From the NCBI RefSeq assembly GCF_019613955.1, contig NZ_CP080443.1, positions 2,837,001 through 2,901,000 on the forward strand: a stretch of DNA of 64,000 bases. Reading direction: 5' to 3'. This document shows positions 42,195 through 47,975 of this stretch, piece after piece. Position numbers and translations under genes: made by a program. Origin of the DNA: Chryseobacterium sp. LJ668. Its GTDB lineage: Bacteria > Bacteroidota > Bacteroidia > Flavobacteriales > Weeksellaceae. The notes under the pieces were generated by a model. The model worked only from the letters and a program-made list of their open reading frames with translations, did not search any database and was not told where the DNA came from. The first letter of the stretch is position 1. Every line of letters begins with the position of its first letter.

Positions 42195-45100
42195 ATGGGC
42201 GAAAATAAGCACCACGAAAAAGAATCTTTCTTTTCAAGCTGGGCGGTAGACAATAGAACCACAGTATACGTACTTACATTTATCATTGTGATTCTTGGGA
42301 TCTTTGCTTACACTTCTATGCCAAGAGAAAGCTTTCCGGAAGTGGTAGAAAATAAGATATATATTTCTTCAGTGTACCCGGGGAACTCAGCAGAAGATGT
42401 TGAAAAGCTGATCACTAAAGAACTTGAAGATAAGTTTAAAAATGTTTCGGGAGTAGATAAAGTGACTTCAAATTCCTTTCAGGATTACTGTCTGATTACA
42501 GTTGAATTTGAAGAAAAAGTAGCTTTAGCCGAAGCGAAGCAAAGAATTAAAGACAAAGTAGATGAGGCAAAAGGAGATCAGGACTGGCCGACAGTAGACT
42601 CTGGTTCTAAAGTAGAACCTAGTGTTTTTGATCTTAATATTTCTGAGGAAATGCCGATCTTAAATGTAAATTTAAAAGGAAATTATCCAAAATTTACGCT
42701 TAGACAATATGCAGATGACATCAAAGACGATCTTGAAGATATTCCTGAAGTAAAGGAAGCAACAGTTTTGGGAGTAGATGACAATGAAGTGGAAGTTGCG
42801 CTGGATATCTTTAAAATGAATGCCGCAGGAGTAAGTTTTGATCAGGTGATTACTTCTATCAAAAATGAGAACATTACCATTTCCGGGGGAAATCTTGTTA
42901 CCGAAGGAAACCGTGAAAATGTCAGAATCAAAGGTCAGATTTCAGATCCGGCAGATATCAATAATTTCGTCATAAAACCAGGTGTAAGAATCATGGATAT
43001 TGCGAAAGTGGAATTTAAAGAAAAAGAAAAAACTACCTACGCAAGAGAATCCGGAGAAGATGTAGTCATGATCAATTTGAAGAAAAGATCGGGTACTAAC
43101 ATGATTGCAGCGATAGAGCAGGCAAAAGAAAAAATTAAAAAAGCACAGGAAACGTATATTCCGAAAGATATTGATATTTCTTTAACATCTGACCAATCTA
43201 CAGATGTTGAGCATCAGGTAAACGAATTGGCAAACCACATTCTGATCGGTATTCTTTTGGTAATGTGTGTGTTGAGTTTCTCGATGGGGCTTAAAAATGC
43301 ATTATTTGTGGGTACAGCAATTCCGCTTTCCATGTTGATTGCCTTTGCGATATTAAGTGCTTTTGGAGTCACCTTAAATACCATGGTGCTTTTCGCAATG
43401 GTAATGGGACTCGGTATGCTCGTAGATGATGGTATTGTAGTTGTAGACAACGTTTACGCTAACATGGAAAAAGGCTACAAACGTAGAGAAGCTTCTAAAT
43501 TTGGGATCGGAGAGATCGCTTTTCCGGTTATTACTTCCACTTTAACTACCGTTTGTGCATTCTTACCGATGTTGATGTGGCCCGGAATTATGGGAAAATT
43601 CATGAAATATTTCCCGATTACGATTTCTGTAACCTTAATGGCTTCATTATTTGTGGCGTTGATTATTAACGCTTCCATGACAGCAGGAGGAATGACATTA
43701 GATAATAAAAACCTTACCGGTTCTCAGGCTAAAAAATACACCCTTATCTTTGCAATTCTGGCAGTAGTTTTTGGAGCATTAAGATTAATTACAGGGGTAG
43801 AGTTTTTCCTGGCAATCGTAACACTTTCTGTATTGGCCATTGCAGCGATATGGCTGTATAAAGGATTTTTTCATGACAGAATTGAGCATTTCCAATATAC
43901 TTTCTTTCCGAATCTTGCTAAAAGATATCAGAAATTTTTAAAAAATCTATTGCAGGGTAAAAAACCGAGATATTGGTTCTTAGGCGTTATTGGAGTGCTT
44001 ATTTTCTCATTCATTCTGTATGGAATGATGATGGGAATCGGACGTTCAAAAGTCCTTTTCTTCCCTGAAAATATTCCTAAACAGGTGATTGTTTATATGG
44101 AATATCCTCAAGGAACAGATATTGCCAAGACAAATACGGCTACAAAACAGGTTGAAGCAAGGATTTTAAATGTTTTAAAGCAATATAAGGACGAGAAAAC
44201 CGGAGAAAACTTTCTTGCAGAATCAATGGTAACCCAAGTAGGTAAAGGTGCGATCAATCCACAGGTTGATGCAGGTTCTGAAGCAGATACGCCATTTAAA
44301 TCAAAAACGACAATCACGTTCGTAGAATTTGCAAAACGTAGGGGTATTGATACAGGTGAAGTAATGGAACAGATCCGAAAAGCAGTTCCAAATATTCCCG
44401 GGTTTACGTTTACCGTTGAAAAAGATGCCAACGGTCCGCCAGTAGGTTATCCTGTTTCAATTGAACTTAGAGGAGACGATTATGATCAATTGTTGACTGA
44501 AGCTCACAATATGATCACGTATATAAACAAGCAGGGAATTTCAGGAATCGAAAAACTGCAGTCAGACATCAATAAGGAAAGTCCGGAGCTGATTATAGAT
44601 ATCGATAGAGAGGCAGCAGGAAACATGGGAGTTTCGACGGCTTATACAGGGATTACACTTCGTAGAGCTCTATTCGGACAGGATATTTCTACCTTCAAAG
44701 ATGTTAAAGATGATTATGATATTTCAGTAAGATTACAACAGGATCAAAGAAGAAATACGAGCTTGCTGTTTAATCAGCCGATTACGCTGCAAGGACAGAG
44801 CGGTCCTGTTCTGGTTCCGATGTCTACGTTCTCTACCATGAAGGAAGAAACAACTTTCAATAAAATCAAGAGAAAAGATAATACAAGAACTATTATGGTT
44901 TACTCTAACGTATTGAAAGACTATAATGCCAATGAGATCGTTCAGAAAATTCAGGAATCATTGAAAAACTATAAGACTCCGGAAGGGATTACCTATAGTT
45001 TTGGCGGAGAGCAGGAAGAGCAGGGCAAGAATATGAATTTCCTTTTATTTGCATTATTCCTGGCAATGGCATTGGTAACATCCATTATTGTATTCCAGTT

Positions 45101-45767
45101 TAACTCACTTTCAAAAACTTTGATCATTATGACTACGATTTTCTTAAGTTTTGCAGGAGTGTTTTTAGGACTGTCAATTTTCGGGATGGACTTTGTAATT
45201 CTGATGACGATGATGGGAATCATTTCGTTAGCCGGAGTTGTAGTGAAGAACGGTATCGTATTGATGGACTTCTTTGTTCTTAAACTCGACGAACTGGTGT
45301 ATAAAAAAGGTGTTGAAACTCACGATGACCTTGAGCTTGAAGAAGTAAAAGAAGTCATCATCGAATCCGGAAAAGAACGTCTGAGACCGGTGTTGCTGAC
45401 TGCTACAACAGCGATCTTGGGTCTGATTCCGTTAGCAATCGGTTTAAACTTCGATATATTTTCTTTCCTTACCACATTGAATCCTCATTTTTCATTAGGG
45501 GGCGACAACGTAATGTTCTGGGGACCATTGGCATGGACGATTATTTTCGGACTATCATTTGCTACTTTCCTTACCTTGATCATCGTTCCGGTAATGTTCT
45601 ACATTATCTCAAAACGTAAAATCAACAGAAGAAAAAAGTTTGTTGCAAAACATGCGCATGATGCAGAAGATGAAGCTGAAGAGCAGGAAAGATTGAAGAA
45701 GCTGTATCCTCAGGAATTTGAAGAATATCACAAGAAAAATGATGATAATTTAGGTCTGGAATCATAA
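42195..45767 (+). CDS. RND family efflux pump permease
   Basis: The 1190-residue inner membrane protein belongs to the AcrB-like RND superfamily. It has the TM1 start (TVYVLTFIIVILGIFAYTSMPRESFPEV), the helix-4 motif FAMVMGLGMLVDDGIVVVDN with adjacent Asp residues that carry protons, and SLAGVVVKNGIVLMDFF in the second half. It is longer than AcrB (~1050) because of extra hydrophobic segments and a linker around 505-590, between the two repeat halves. It expels small toxic molecules with proton motive force. The substrate cannot be read. It ends the operon before a strong terminator. Confidence 0.92.
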   Translation: MGENKHHEKESFFSSWAVDNRTTVYVLTFIIVILGIFAYTSMPRESFPEVVENKIYISSVYPGNSAEDVEKLITKELEDKFKNVSGVDKVTSNSFQDYCLITVEFEEKVALAEAKQRIKDKVDEAKGDQDWPTVDSGSKVEPSVFDLNISEEMPILNVNLKGNYPKFTLRQYADDIKDDLEDIPEVKEATVLGVDDNEVEVALDIFKMNAAGVSFDQVITSIKNENITISGGNLVTEGNRENVRIKGQISDPADINNFVIKPGVRIMDIAKVEFKEKEKTTYARESGEDVVMINLKKRSGTNMIAAIEQAKEKIKKAQETYIPKDIDISLTSDQSTDVEHQVNELANHILIGILLVMCVLSFSMGLKNALFVGTAIPLSMLIAFAILSAFGVTLNTMVLFAMVMGLGMLVDDGIVVVDNVYANMEKGYKRREASKFGIGEIAFPVITSTLTTVCAFLPMLMWPGIMGKFMKYFPITISVTLMASLFVALIINASMTAGGMTLDNKNLTGSQAKKYTLIFAILAVVFGALRLITGVEFFLAIVTLSVLAIAAIWLYKGFFHDRIEHFQYTFFPNLAKRYQKFLKNLLQGKKPRYWFLGVIGVLIFSFILYGMMMGIGRSKVLFFPENIPKQVIVYMEYPQGTDIAKTNTATKQVEARILNVLKQYKDEKTGENFLAESMVTQVGKGAINPQVDAGSEADTPFKSKTTITFVEFAKRRGIDTGEVMEQIRKAVPNIPGFTFTVEKDANGPPVGYPVSIELRGDDYDQLLTEAHNMITYINKQGISGIEKLQSDINKESPELIIDIDREAAGNMGVSTAYTGITLRRALFGQDISTFKDVKDDYDISVRLQQDQRRNTSLLFNQPITLQGQSGPVLVPMSTFSTMKEETTFNKIKRKDNTRTIMVYSNVLKDYNANEIVQKIQESLKNYKTPEGITYSFGGEQEEQGKNMNFLLFALFLAMALVTSIIVFQFNSLSKTLIIMTTIFLSFAGVFLGLSIFGMDFVILMTMMGIISLAGVVVKNGIVLMDFFVLKLDELVYKKGVETHDDLELEEVKEVIIESGKERLRPVLLTATTAILGLIPLAIGLNFDIFSFLTTLNPHFSLGGDNVMFWGPLAWTIIFGLSFATFLTLIIVPVMFYIISKRKINRRKKFVAKHAHDAEDEAEEQERLKKLYPQEFEEYHKKNDDNLGLES

Positions 45768-45792
45768 ATTTATACTATCAATATTAACCTGA

Positions 45793-45826
45793 AAAACCGT
45801 ATCGCTCTTGATACGGTTTTTTTATT
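45793..45826 (+). terminator. Terminator of the RND efflux operon
   Basis: AAAACCGTATC (45793-45803) pairs perfectly with GATACGGTTTT (45810-45820) around a 6-base loop, followed by T residues. Confidence 0.9.
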
Positions 45827-45839
45827 TAAGGTTTTTTAC

Positions 45840-46030
45840 GTATCATAATGATCATGCATAGATTTTTCGGGTGGTAAATTGAGTGAAAATGCACGATACA
45901 AACTGAAAGTATAAATTATTATTTGTGCAAAATATTTAAAAATAAATTGTTTAAATAATGAATTTTGTAATTTTATATAAATTATAGTATGATATATACA
46001 TATATTTAACATTTTTTAAAGGTTAGATAT
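45840..46030. other. Very AT-rich intergenic segment before the peptide gene
   Basis: From about 45900 to 46030 the DNA is strikingly A+T-rich and more so than the surrounding genes. No gene, terminator or promoter with a good -33/-7 pair is recognised. It is the left border region of the RiPP-like remnant that follows. Confidence 0.5.
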
Positions 46031-46282
46031 ATGTTAAATGTGATTTTTTTTATAAAATTAATTATTAGTTTTGATATGTCAATTGTGACAAATAACAAAA
46101 TTTATATTTTAATTATAAAGAAATTAAAAAATTTAAAAAACACAGAAATTAACAATCTATCAAAAATTAAAGGTGGGGATTATTACAAAATGACCGAATA
46201 CCAACGAGGAAATTGCACTGTTACAGATGTTATAAACTATGATGACAATATGGGAAAGAAACTGGTAGGGATAATGAAGTAA
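46031..46282 (+). CDS. Putative RiPP precursor with double-glycine leader
   Basis: The 83-residue reading frame contains KKLKNLKNTEINNLSKIKGG at residues 30-49. This is a Lys/Leu/Asn-rich leader ending in the Gly-Gly cleavage site used by C39 peptidase transporters, typical of Bacteroidota natural-product precursors. Cleavage would release a 34-residue core that starts DYYKMTEYQRGNC and holds one cysteine and several Thr, Asp, Tyr and Lys residues. The start at 46031 is uncertain: ATG 46076 gives a 34-residue leader and is at least as likely. It lies ahead of a DUF6624-like gene and an ATP-grasp maturase fragment. I infer a grasp-with-spasm type precursor, but the core has no diagnostic motif that I can verify. 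Confidence 0.55.
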   Translation: MLNVIFFIKLIISFDMSIVTNNKIYILIIKKLKNLKNTEINNLSKIKGGDYYKMTEYQRGNCTVTDVINYDDNMGKKLVGIMK

Positions 46283-46406
46283 CAGTATCTTGCCCTTCGT
46301 TGTCTATTAATTAAAATTTCGCAAAATTTTTCTTTAAAGAAATTGGTCTCGTCATTCATTACTGACAAGGCTAATCTTTTGTTATTAACTTTTAAAAGAT
46401 TATAAA

Positions 46407-47365
46407 ATGATAAAAAGAGGGTATCTACTGGTGTGCATTGTGATTTTTACATTCACTCATGCGCAGCAAAAATATTATGAATCTATGATTGCTATAGATG
46501 TAGCAATCAAACAAAATAATTACAAAGAAGCTTATACTATATTACAAGGAATAAAAGAACCTTTGTCAGATTTAAATAAGAGAACTGCATTAGATATATA
46601 TCTGAAAAACGATAAAAAGAAACCGGCTCTGAAATTAATACGAGAATTGGGTGAGATAAATTATCATGTAAAATATATGCTTACAAAAGATTCATTGATA
46701 TTGAAGGCTATGACCAAAGAAAGATTTTACAAAGCATATAACAAAGGGCTGAAAAAATTTATTGTAAACTATAATCAAGAATTTAGTGATATCATCACCG
46801 AATCTCAGTATTTGGATCAATATGTAAGAACCAATGAATCATTTACTAAACTAAAAAGGGAAACAGATTTTCTAAAAGAAACTGATCTATCTAATTATAA
46901 AAGGATTTCACAGCAAATCGATAAATATGGTTTCCCTACCGCTAAAACTATTGGTCAGCATAACCTTAATAATCTTGATCTTATTTTAATGCATTGCACC
47001 CGATATGATGACAGCATATATACCAAAGTAGTATCTTATTATGAAGCTGCCATAAAAAATAAGAATTTAAGACCAACGGACTTAGGATATCTAATAGATG
47101 ATCATGATGCGGTTATACAAGAAAAAGCGACAACTTTTGGGCTTAAAACGCAGACCTCAAAGGAAGGACAAAAGCTATATGAAGAAAAAAAAATAACTAT
47201 TATGGATTTGATTAAAGATAAAAAATATATTGAATTTAACCCATAAAAGATATAAAAAACGTAGATGCTCTGCGAAAAAAATATTTTCTTCCGATGGTAT
47301 GGCAACAGGCTATATTAAATGAGATAAAAAAGCTGCCACCTGGATATGAAAGAAAATACGATTAA
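46407..47365 (+). pseudogene. Secreted DUF6624-like protein, broken by a one-base frameshift
   Basis: The first frame (46407-47246) gives 279 residues with a signal peptide ending near THAQ (residue ~19). A C-terminal region follows with YGFPTAKTIGQHNLNNLDLILMH, RPTDLGYLIDDHDAV and TTFGLKTQ, the layout of DUF6624 proteins. It stops at a TAA right after EFNP. A different frame continues without a break: IKDIKNVDALRKKYFLP... to YERKYD and a stop at 47363-47365. This matches the usual DUF6624 ending PI-D--NVD--R----LP. Restoring one C in the run of C at 47240-47242 joins both into a 319-residue protein. The new 3' end overlaps the next gene's start by 20 bases. A sequencing error cannot be excluded. 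Confidence 0.6.
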
Positions 47366-47528
47366 TATAATTACCCAAGCAAATAATACAGTCTCTGATA
47401 CAGTATGTGAATATCTTTTAGGAAAAAAAATACTTTTTAACAGAATTAACGATAACGATTTTTATCCCGTTACTTTTGATGTTAAGACTATAAATAAAGA
47501 GCTTAGGATAAAGATTATAAATCAGAAA
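47346..47528 (+). pseudogene. Truncated grasp-with-spasm type ATP-grasp peptide maturase (N-terminus only)
   Basis: The first 61 codons read like the start of bacterial ATP-grasp peptide maturases. An opening strand INIITQANNTVSDTV, then EYLLGKKILFNRINDNDFYP, fits the pattern I-I-x-x-N-x-x-x-S-x-x-V then F-x-R-I-N-x-x-D of the pre-ATP-grasp domain. Normal members have over 300 residues, so the ATP-grasp core is missing. Homology ends where the frame meets the stop codon of the convergent J-domain/KTSC gene at 47529. Although the frame stays open to 47690, that part is antisense to the KTSC gene. The gene overlaps the restored end of the DUF6624-like gene by 20 bases. I infer deletion of the rest of a RiPP cluster. 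Confidence 0.6.
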
Positions 47529-47975
47529 TTAATCTGCCATTACTTCACCAGACTTTCTGTAGATGAAATTTCCATAGATATGTCTTCTGGCAAAACGGCT
47601 TGGCGAATCAGAATTCACCATTTTGATGTAAGTATTTCTTGGGACACCGATATATTCAAACATTTTACCATTCAGATGCTGCACTTTTAAAATCTGTTTT
47701 TCAAGATAAAAATCTGTAATGATAGATGTTGTGATCGTCTCCGTATATTCTTCTCTATATTTTTCCTGTGTTTCTTCGTTGATGCTTACCAAAAAATGAT
47801 AGGCTTCAATGATTGATTTGCTTTTTTCTTCAGCTTCTAATTTCCCTTCTTCATCATTGATAAATTTATCAGGATGCGTATCTTTCATCGTATTCCTGTA
47901 AATGGTTTTTAAGTCTTTTAAAGTTGCCGTTTTATCAACGCCAAGAAGCTTTCTGTGCTCGCCAATTCTTTTCAT
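47529..47975 (-). CDS. J-domain protein with C-terminal KTSC domain
   Basis: The 148-residue protein has an N-terminal DnaJ-like domain with the HPD motif in MKDTHPDKF (residues ~30-38) and a helical region around 45-70. A KTSC-type domain follows (about 100-148, LNGKMFEYIGVPRNTYIKMVNSDSPSRFARRHIYGNFIYRKSGE). The J-domain should stimulate an Hsp70 partner; the KTSC domain is of unknown function and is often fused to or encoded with nucleic-acid and stress proteins. Its stop codon coincides with the junction of the truncated maturase gene on the other strand. Confidence 0.8.
   Translation of the reverse strand: MKRIGEHRKLLGVDKTATLKDLKTIYRNTMKDTHPDKFINDEEGKLEAEEKSKSIIEAYHFLVSINEETQEKYREEYTETITTSIITDFYLEKQILKVQHLNGKMFEYIGVPRNTYIKMVNSDSPSRFARRHIYGNFIYRKSGEVMAD

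Follow-up and report, generated by a model that had tools for sequence, protein, structure and literature searches.

Broken remains of a probably laterally acquired grasp-with-spasm RiPP cluster flanked by an RND efflux operon and a J-domain/KTSC gene in Chryseobacterium

Closest described systems and the features of the locus

According to PMC8939145, the graspetide 'branch 5' loci encode an ATP-grasp and a SPASM enzyme together with a secreted 'cluster 23' protein, and the gene just before that of the SPASM enzyme encodes a small protein. The cluster of one same-genus genome (G063), to which we compare our locus below, resembles this branch in having a secreted protein, an ATP-grasp maturase and a small protein before the SPASM protein, and resembles the grasp-with-spasm systems (TIGR04192 GwsG, TIGR04193 GwsS), which we take to correspond to branch 5, in having a precursor with an MKKL-like leader and a conserved Cys. 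Unlike full grasp-with-spasm systems, the locus described here keeps the first three genes only, all of them broken. The chryseoviridin-type microviridin clusters come from the same genus and also make ATP-grasp RiPPs, whereas the relic belongs with the SPASM-linked systems; for the chryseoviridin loci of Chryseobacterium, PMC8939145 infers whole-locus exchange between species, or one unknown source. Judged by titles and the beginnings of abstracts, none of the papers retrieved by a search on degraded RiPP clusters dealt with that subject, and a literature search for 'grasp-with-spasm' as a term found nothing.

The window, by which we mean the whole stretch of 64,000 nucleotides that was analysed, very probably holds what is left of a laterally acquired grasp-with-spasm cluster that came to lie between an RND operon and a KTSC gene and was then truncated and rendered non-functional. 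The features of this locus are as follows.

42195..45767, + strand: RND efflux pump gene (AcrB family), left flank, intact (PF00873, 3.7e-166; its orthologue adjoins KTSC in five relatives)
45791..45822, no strand assigned: hairpin with a T-run after the RND gene, probable bidirectional terminator (fold z -6.9 on +, -6.4 on -)
45827..46043, no strand assigned: left part of the insert, probably the precursor's upstream region (no convincing relative among the matches listed)
46115..46314, + strand: RiPP precursor gene relic (DNA alignment to G063, translations, alignment of three precursors)
46407..47246, + strand: secreted-protein relic, first piece, 279 aa (87% identical to the intact 319-aa P0003 and P0004)
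47240..47365, + strand: secreted-protein relic, second piece, 41 aa, in another frame and overlapping the maturase start (matches the C-terminus of the intact proteins)
47346..47510, + strand: gwsG remnant, first 55 codons of an approximately 307-codon ATP-grasp maturase (46/55 identical to G063 gwsG)
47511..47528, no strand assigned: non-gwsG bases, probably the leftover KTSC 3' region without its terminator (KTSC 3' ends compared by eye; folds)
47529..47975, - strand: J-domain/KTSC gene, right flank, intact, 148 aa (PF13619, 2.4e-11; PF00226, 5e-10; conserved in relatives)

An intact relative and three broken genes

At another locus, G063 carries an intact cluster, to which positions 46044-47505 of the window align at 82% DNA identity. 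Its order is a precursor, a secreted 319-aa protein, gwsG overlapping the end of the secreted-protein gene, a 59-aa ORF and a SPASM protein (gwsS). The G063 maturase matches TIGR04192 at 9.6e-64 with 215.7 bits, just below the curated cut-off of 230, and the SPASM protein matches TIGR04193 at 1.9e-102, above the cut-off. The 59-aa ORF directly upstream of the SPASM gene has no LPL string and reads LPI instead. By hmmscan the 319-aa homologue, a candidate cluster 23/DUF6624 protein, has no match to DUF6624; compared with the DUF6624 protein of a second cluster, at 1.50 Mb in our own genome, it gives a weak local match (E 2e-6, for this one comparison). The next gene past the G063 SPASM gene lies 13 bp off on the other strand and is one that we take to be an NhaA antiporter; a transporter, which an earlier sequence-only reading of this DNA had counted among the distal genes of the cluster, is thus missing between the SPASM gene and its next gene. 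A related cluster lacking the secreted-protein gene is found in G084 at a third locus.

That reading had implied intact genes upstream of the maturase, and here it does not hold, since the precursor and the secreted-protein gene have both lost their frame, and the precursor its start codon too. The precursor relic, which can be aligned with the G063 and G084 precursors, has its leader and part of its core in one frame up to 46282 and the end of its core in another, at 46270-46314. No ATG, GTG or TTG occurs at the start position of the relatives; because two in-frame ATGs are found further upstream, 13 and 28 codons before the lost start, some translation of the relic may still take place. None of the G063 and window precursors matched NCBIfam. 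In the secreted-protein gene the frame is lost near 47240, beside a short A run. Five proteins were found for it. Three have 319-323 aa, a fourth has 202 aa and sits on a contig of 1771 bases, and the fifth is the 279-aa form of the window itself, a representative of two member sequences from two contigs.

The maturase remnant opens at the ATG at 47346 and runs for 61 codons (47346-47528) before it reaches the opposing J-domain/KTSC gene, whose low end, at 47529, is where the two meet. As the sequence-only reading had it, these codons resemble the start of a grasp-with-spasm maturase: residues 1-55 are identical to the 307-residue G063 gwsG at 46/55 positions (84%, E 4e-30) and share 72-85% identity over 52-55 residues with five close relatives besides it; identity to P0008 is 85%. 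Residues 56-61 are non-homologous to gwsG. Full members are several times longer, again as had been stated, the six closest relatives having 305-316 aa. Matching the 61 residues against other proteins, the check that had been proposed, left the profiles silent but recovered full-length ATP-grasp maturases over residues 1-55. Neither the 61 nor the 114 residues of the open frame matched a gwsG/TIGR04192 profile in NCBIfam, where a single unrelated weak match appeared (E 0.077); the 61 residues found no match in Pfam, and a TIGR04192 profile search of our own genome gave none at the position of the remnant. Since the short piece matches no gwsG profile, its identification rests on the full-length relatives; the remnant is too short for a profile to judge. 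In the relative from G063 the RimK-like ATP-grasp match covers residues 117-304, beyond the break, so the ATP-grasp catalytic domain is missing from the remnant, and about five sixths of the maturase are missing at the locus.

The maturase frame does not end at its neighbour's stop codon, where it had been said to be cut exactly. Homology to intact gwsG ceases at about 47505 in DNA and 47510 in protein, which puts the break approximately 18 nt before that stop codon, and the frame from 47346, having no stop at 47529, forms an ORF of 114 aa open to 47690. It thus runs on into antisense DNA of the KTSC gene, as the sequence-only reading had described. We considered whether the short gwsG gene might be a working unit by itself, for example a leader-binding fragment, as its open frame and conserved start would allow. 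Such a unit would have to continue into KTSC antisense DNA and act beside a broken precursor, its six closest relatives are all full-length, and no protein of similar length was matched (one candidate, none with E <= 0.001). We regard this explanation as barely credible.

Judged by their sequence, then, all three surviving cluster genes are broken. Assembly or base-calling errors, which the short A run beside one of the frame losses (that of the secreted-protein gene) might suggest, are a highly improbable source of these lesions: approximately 2 kb are missing relative to G063 together with a terminator, three genes are affected independently, and the neighbouring genes, one of 1190 codons, are intact.

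The insertion site and the junction

The genus set comprised 173 genomes, our own included, with one strain of our own species. The RND gene occurs at more than 80% identity in eight of the 173, namely our own genome and seven relatives, and nine others gave only short matches. In five of the seven (G135, G072, G187, G008, G060) the KTSC gene follows the RND gene without a cluster, 138-295 bp apart if counted between the last matched codon of RND and the last codon of KTSC; G062 and G169 have other genes after RND, and in none of the seven does a cluster lie beside the RND gene. Since five relatives lack the cluster between RND and KTSC, we take it to be an insertion here. Comparing this region among related genomes had been proposed as the way to settle the event, and it yielded empty sites in five relatives; the intact cluster of G063 lies elsewhere. 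A reciprocal site exists as well: where G063 has its cluster, our own genome (G000) has none and the two flanking genes are adjacent. When the genus was searched with the relic DNA, only G063 and G084 gave substantial matches within the cluster, the others being at most 53 bits or lying on the KTSC end; because two candidate places were scored per genome, weaker relatives may have been missed in this search.

The site itself has a further history in G169, in which the gene after RND (L108 4157-4729), presumably encoding a Crp-type regulator, is split by an in-frame stop into pieces of 104 aa and 69 aa, so that another lineage also has a broken gene at the RND site.

On the left, the DNA shared with the relatives ends between 45743 and 45826 depending on the relative, and the two longest alignments (G135, G187) end at 45822 and 45826, which makes the RND hairpin the left limit of the DNA common to the empty sites. 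A simple terminator scan reported no terminator, this hairpin included despite its strong fold, which we attribute to the stem absorbing the T-run. The approximately 217 bp that follow (45827-46043) have no counterpart in the empty sites or in the G063 cluster, the best among the matches listed being 38 bp long (E 9e-4).

On the right, shared DNA resumes at 47525-47529, and the approximately 18 nt after the break look, on visual comparison, like the A/T-rich DNA found ahead of the KTSC stop codon in relatives. In all three relatives that were folded (G008, G135, G187) a KTSC terminator hairpin with z of -4.3 to -5.0 sits close to the KTSC stop codon, no more than some tens of bases away, and hairpin-like KTSC 3' stretches were seen by eye in most of the same-genus sequences listed; the corresponding stretch of the window has no terminator hairpin (z -0.1). 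As far as these alignments and predicted folds tell, the break removed the KTSC terminator and ended just short of the KTSC coding end. The junction thus falls at the 3' end of the KTSC gene, as the sequence-only reading had proposed, but about 18 nt before the stop codon rather than on it. That a break survived so near the coding end would fit selection for the KTSC gene and would call for no special mechanism. We also consider, as a very doubtful joint reading, that the 279-residue secreted protein, minus its C-terminal 41 residues, is kept for self-protection against, or uptake of, the peptides of related clusters, and that transcripts from KTSC, no longer stopped by the lost terminator, read on in antisense for approximately 1.7 kb, across the relic and as far as the terminator of RND.

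Origin of the cluster and fate of its distal part

The divergence of the relic from the G063 cluster suggests a common history more recent than that of the two genomes. Between relic and G063, pS was 0.43 over 278 codons and 0.385 over 55 codons, against 0.61-0.72 for six other genes compared between G000 and G063, all of these being rough values from short AT-rich genes. Of the twelve genes tried in this codon comparison, six matched and were counted, one of them over just 97 codons. Excluded were a regulator and a 183-aa protein of G063 that had no match in the stretch of G000, and four genes of the window that had none in the stretch of G063. Given the lower pS of the relic, the cluster seems to have separated after the genomes had done so, a pattern in favour of lateral transfer or a common donor. 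Against this background, an ancestral cluster at the RND-KTSC site that was lost independently in the relatives is most improbable. The relic and G063 would be similar enough for such a common source, but their pS lies below that of the other genes compared, none of the seven relatives with the RND gene has a cluster there, G063 and G084 carry theirs at two other sites, and in the search of the 173 genomes, with two places scored in each, no other genome had one at the RND-KTSC site.

Our preferred explanation is therefore lateral transfer, and we picture it as follows. A graspetide-type RiPP cluster, which in its intact form would have consisted of a precursor, a secreted protein, gwsG, a 59-residue protein and gwsS, would have been placed between the RND efflux operon and the J-domain/KTSC gene. 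One break would then have fused codon 55 of gwsG to DNA approximately 18 nt from the KTSC stop codon, and the same break would have taken the KTSC terminator along with roughly five sixths of the maturase and all that lay distal to the maturase. Both the precursor and the secreted-protein gene would have lost their frame, the precursor its start codon as well. The homology, the empty sites, the breakpoint region, the lesions and the failure to find a distal part elsewhere in the genome are direct results; we infer the transfer, the order of events, deletion as the mechanism and the lack of function. Of the sequence-only claim that a cluster had been present here and lost its distal part by deletion, insertion and distal loss are borne out, deletion is our reconstruction, and the upstream genes it took as intact are not.

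Deletion after insertion of the full cluster is likely, and insertion of a piece only fits the same data. According to the latter, the insertion never comprised more than the 5' part of the cluster, which took the place of the KTSC 3' region in one and the same recombination event and was dead on arrival. Replacement of this kind would give a right junction without the KTSC terminator, as is seen, and no distal remnant was found in the genome; a later deletion, however, would yield the identical junction. The dN/dS of 0.155 in both relic pieces against G063 indicates constraint for most of their separate history, with breaks that came late or a short time since, yet this value also covers evolution in the donor line and so separates neither order of events from the other. 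We rate insertion of a piece only as unlikely but worth keeping in view; it is a variant of the preferred explanation, with which it shares its probability.

Our own genome was searched with the G063 region, TIGR04192 and TIGR04193, and no distal remnant of the relic's cluster was found. It holds one gwsG and one gwsS match, both in the other cluster at 1.50 Mb, to which the matches of the G063 region there also belong; the SPASM partner (TIGR04193) is absent beside the relic and has its sole genome match at 1.50 Mb. The rest of the maturase and the SPASM partner are thus gone from the locus, as the sequence-only reading supposed, the only copies found being in that other cluster, whereas the transporter it listed with them drops out. 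The cluster at 1.50 Mb (L001 246-3705, G000 contig 1) is of the same system type as the relic but intact, with a DUF6624 protein, two short precursor-like genes, gwsG and gwsS, and its GwsG scores 227.6 bits, just below the TIGR04192 cut-off. We tried it as the parent of the relic and rejected it, the 61 residues having no significant match to its GwsG.

Among the SPASM proteins, those at L001 2605-3705 and L092 8268-9356 share 72-85% identity in alignment columns 241-360, 26-50% before these and 62% in the last short block, in clusters that have otherwise diverged. Their third-position identity is only modestly raised, so that domain constraint explains most of this pattern and recombination perhaps some. 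Across the genus, a TIGR04192 match with E <= 0.001 occurs in 156 of the 173 genomes and exceeds the curated cut-off in 111 of these, and since there are often several matches per genome, multiple copies seem usual.

A DNA search of plasmid and phage collections for a vehicle gave no match in either, and no perfect 9-base repeat common to both flanks was found by script. With the G063 maturase as query, 21 plasmid records were matched, among them three with genes annotated gwsG, at 29-32% identity.

In mechanism this is ordinary pseudogenisation and gene decay, unusually well documented, and not new. With a decayed copy that can be set beside an intact relative and empty sites, the locus offers a clear before-and-after picture of a RiPP cluster changing place between genomes, and it carries a warning for genome mining, in that a hit on precursor-like or 5' sequence may come from a dead cluster.
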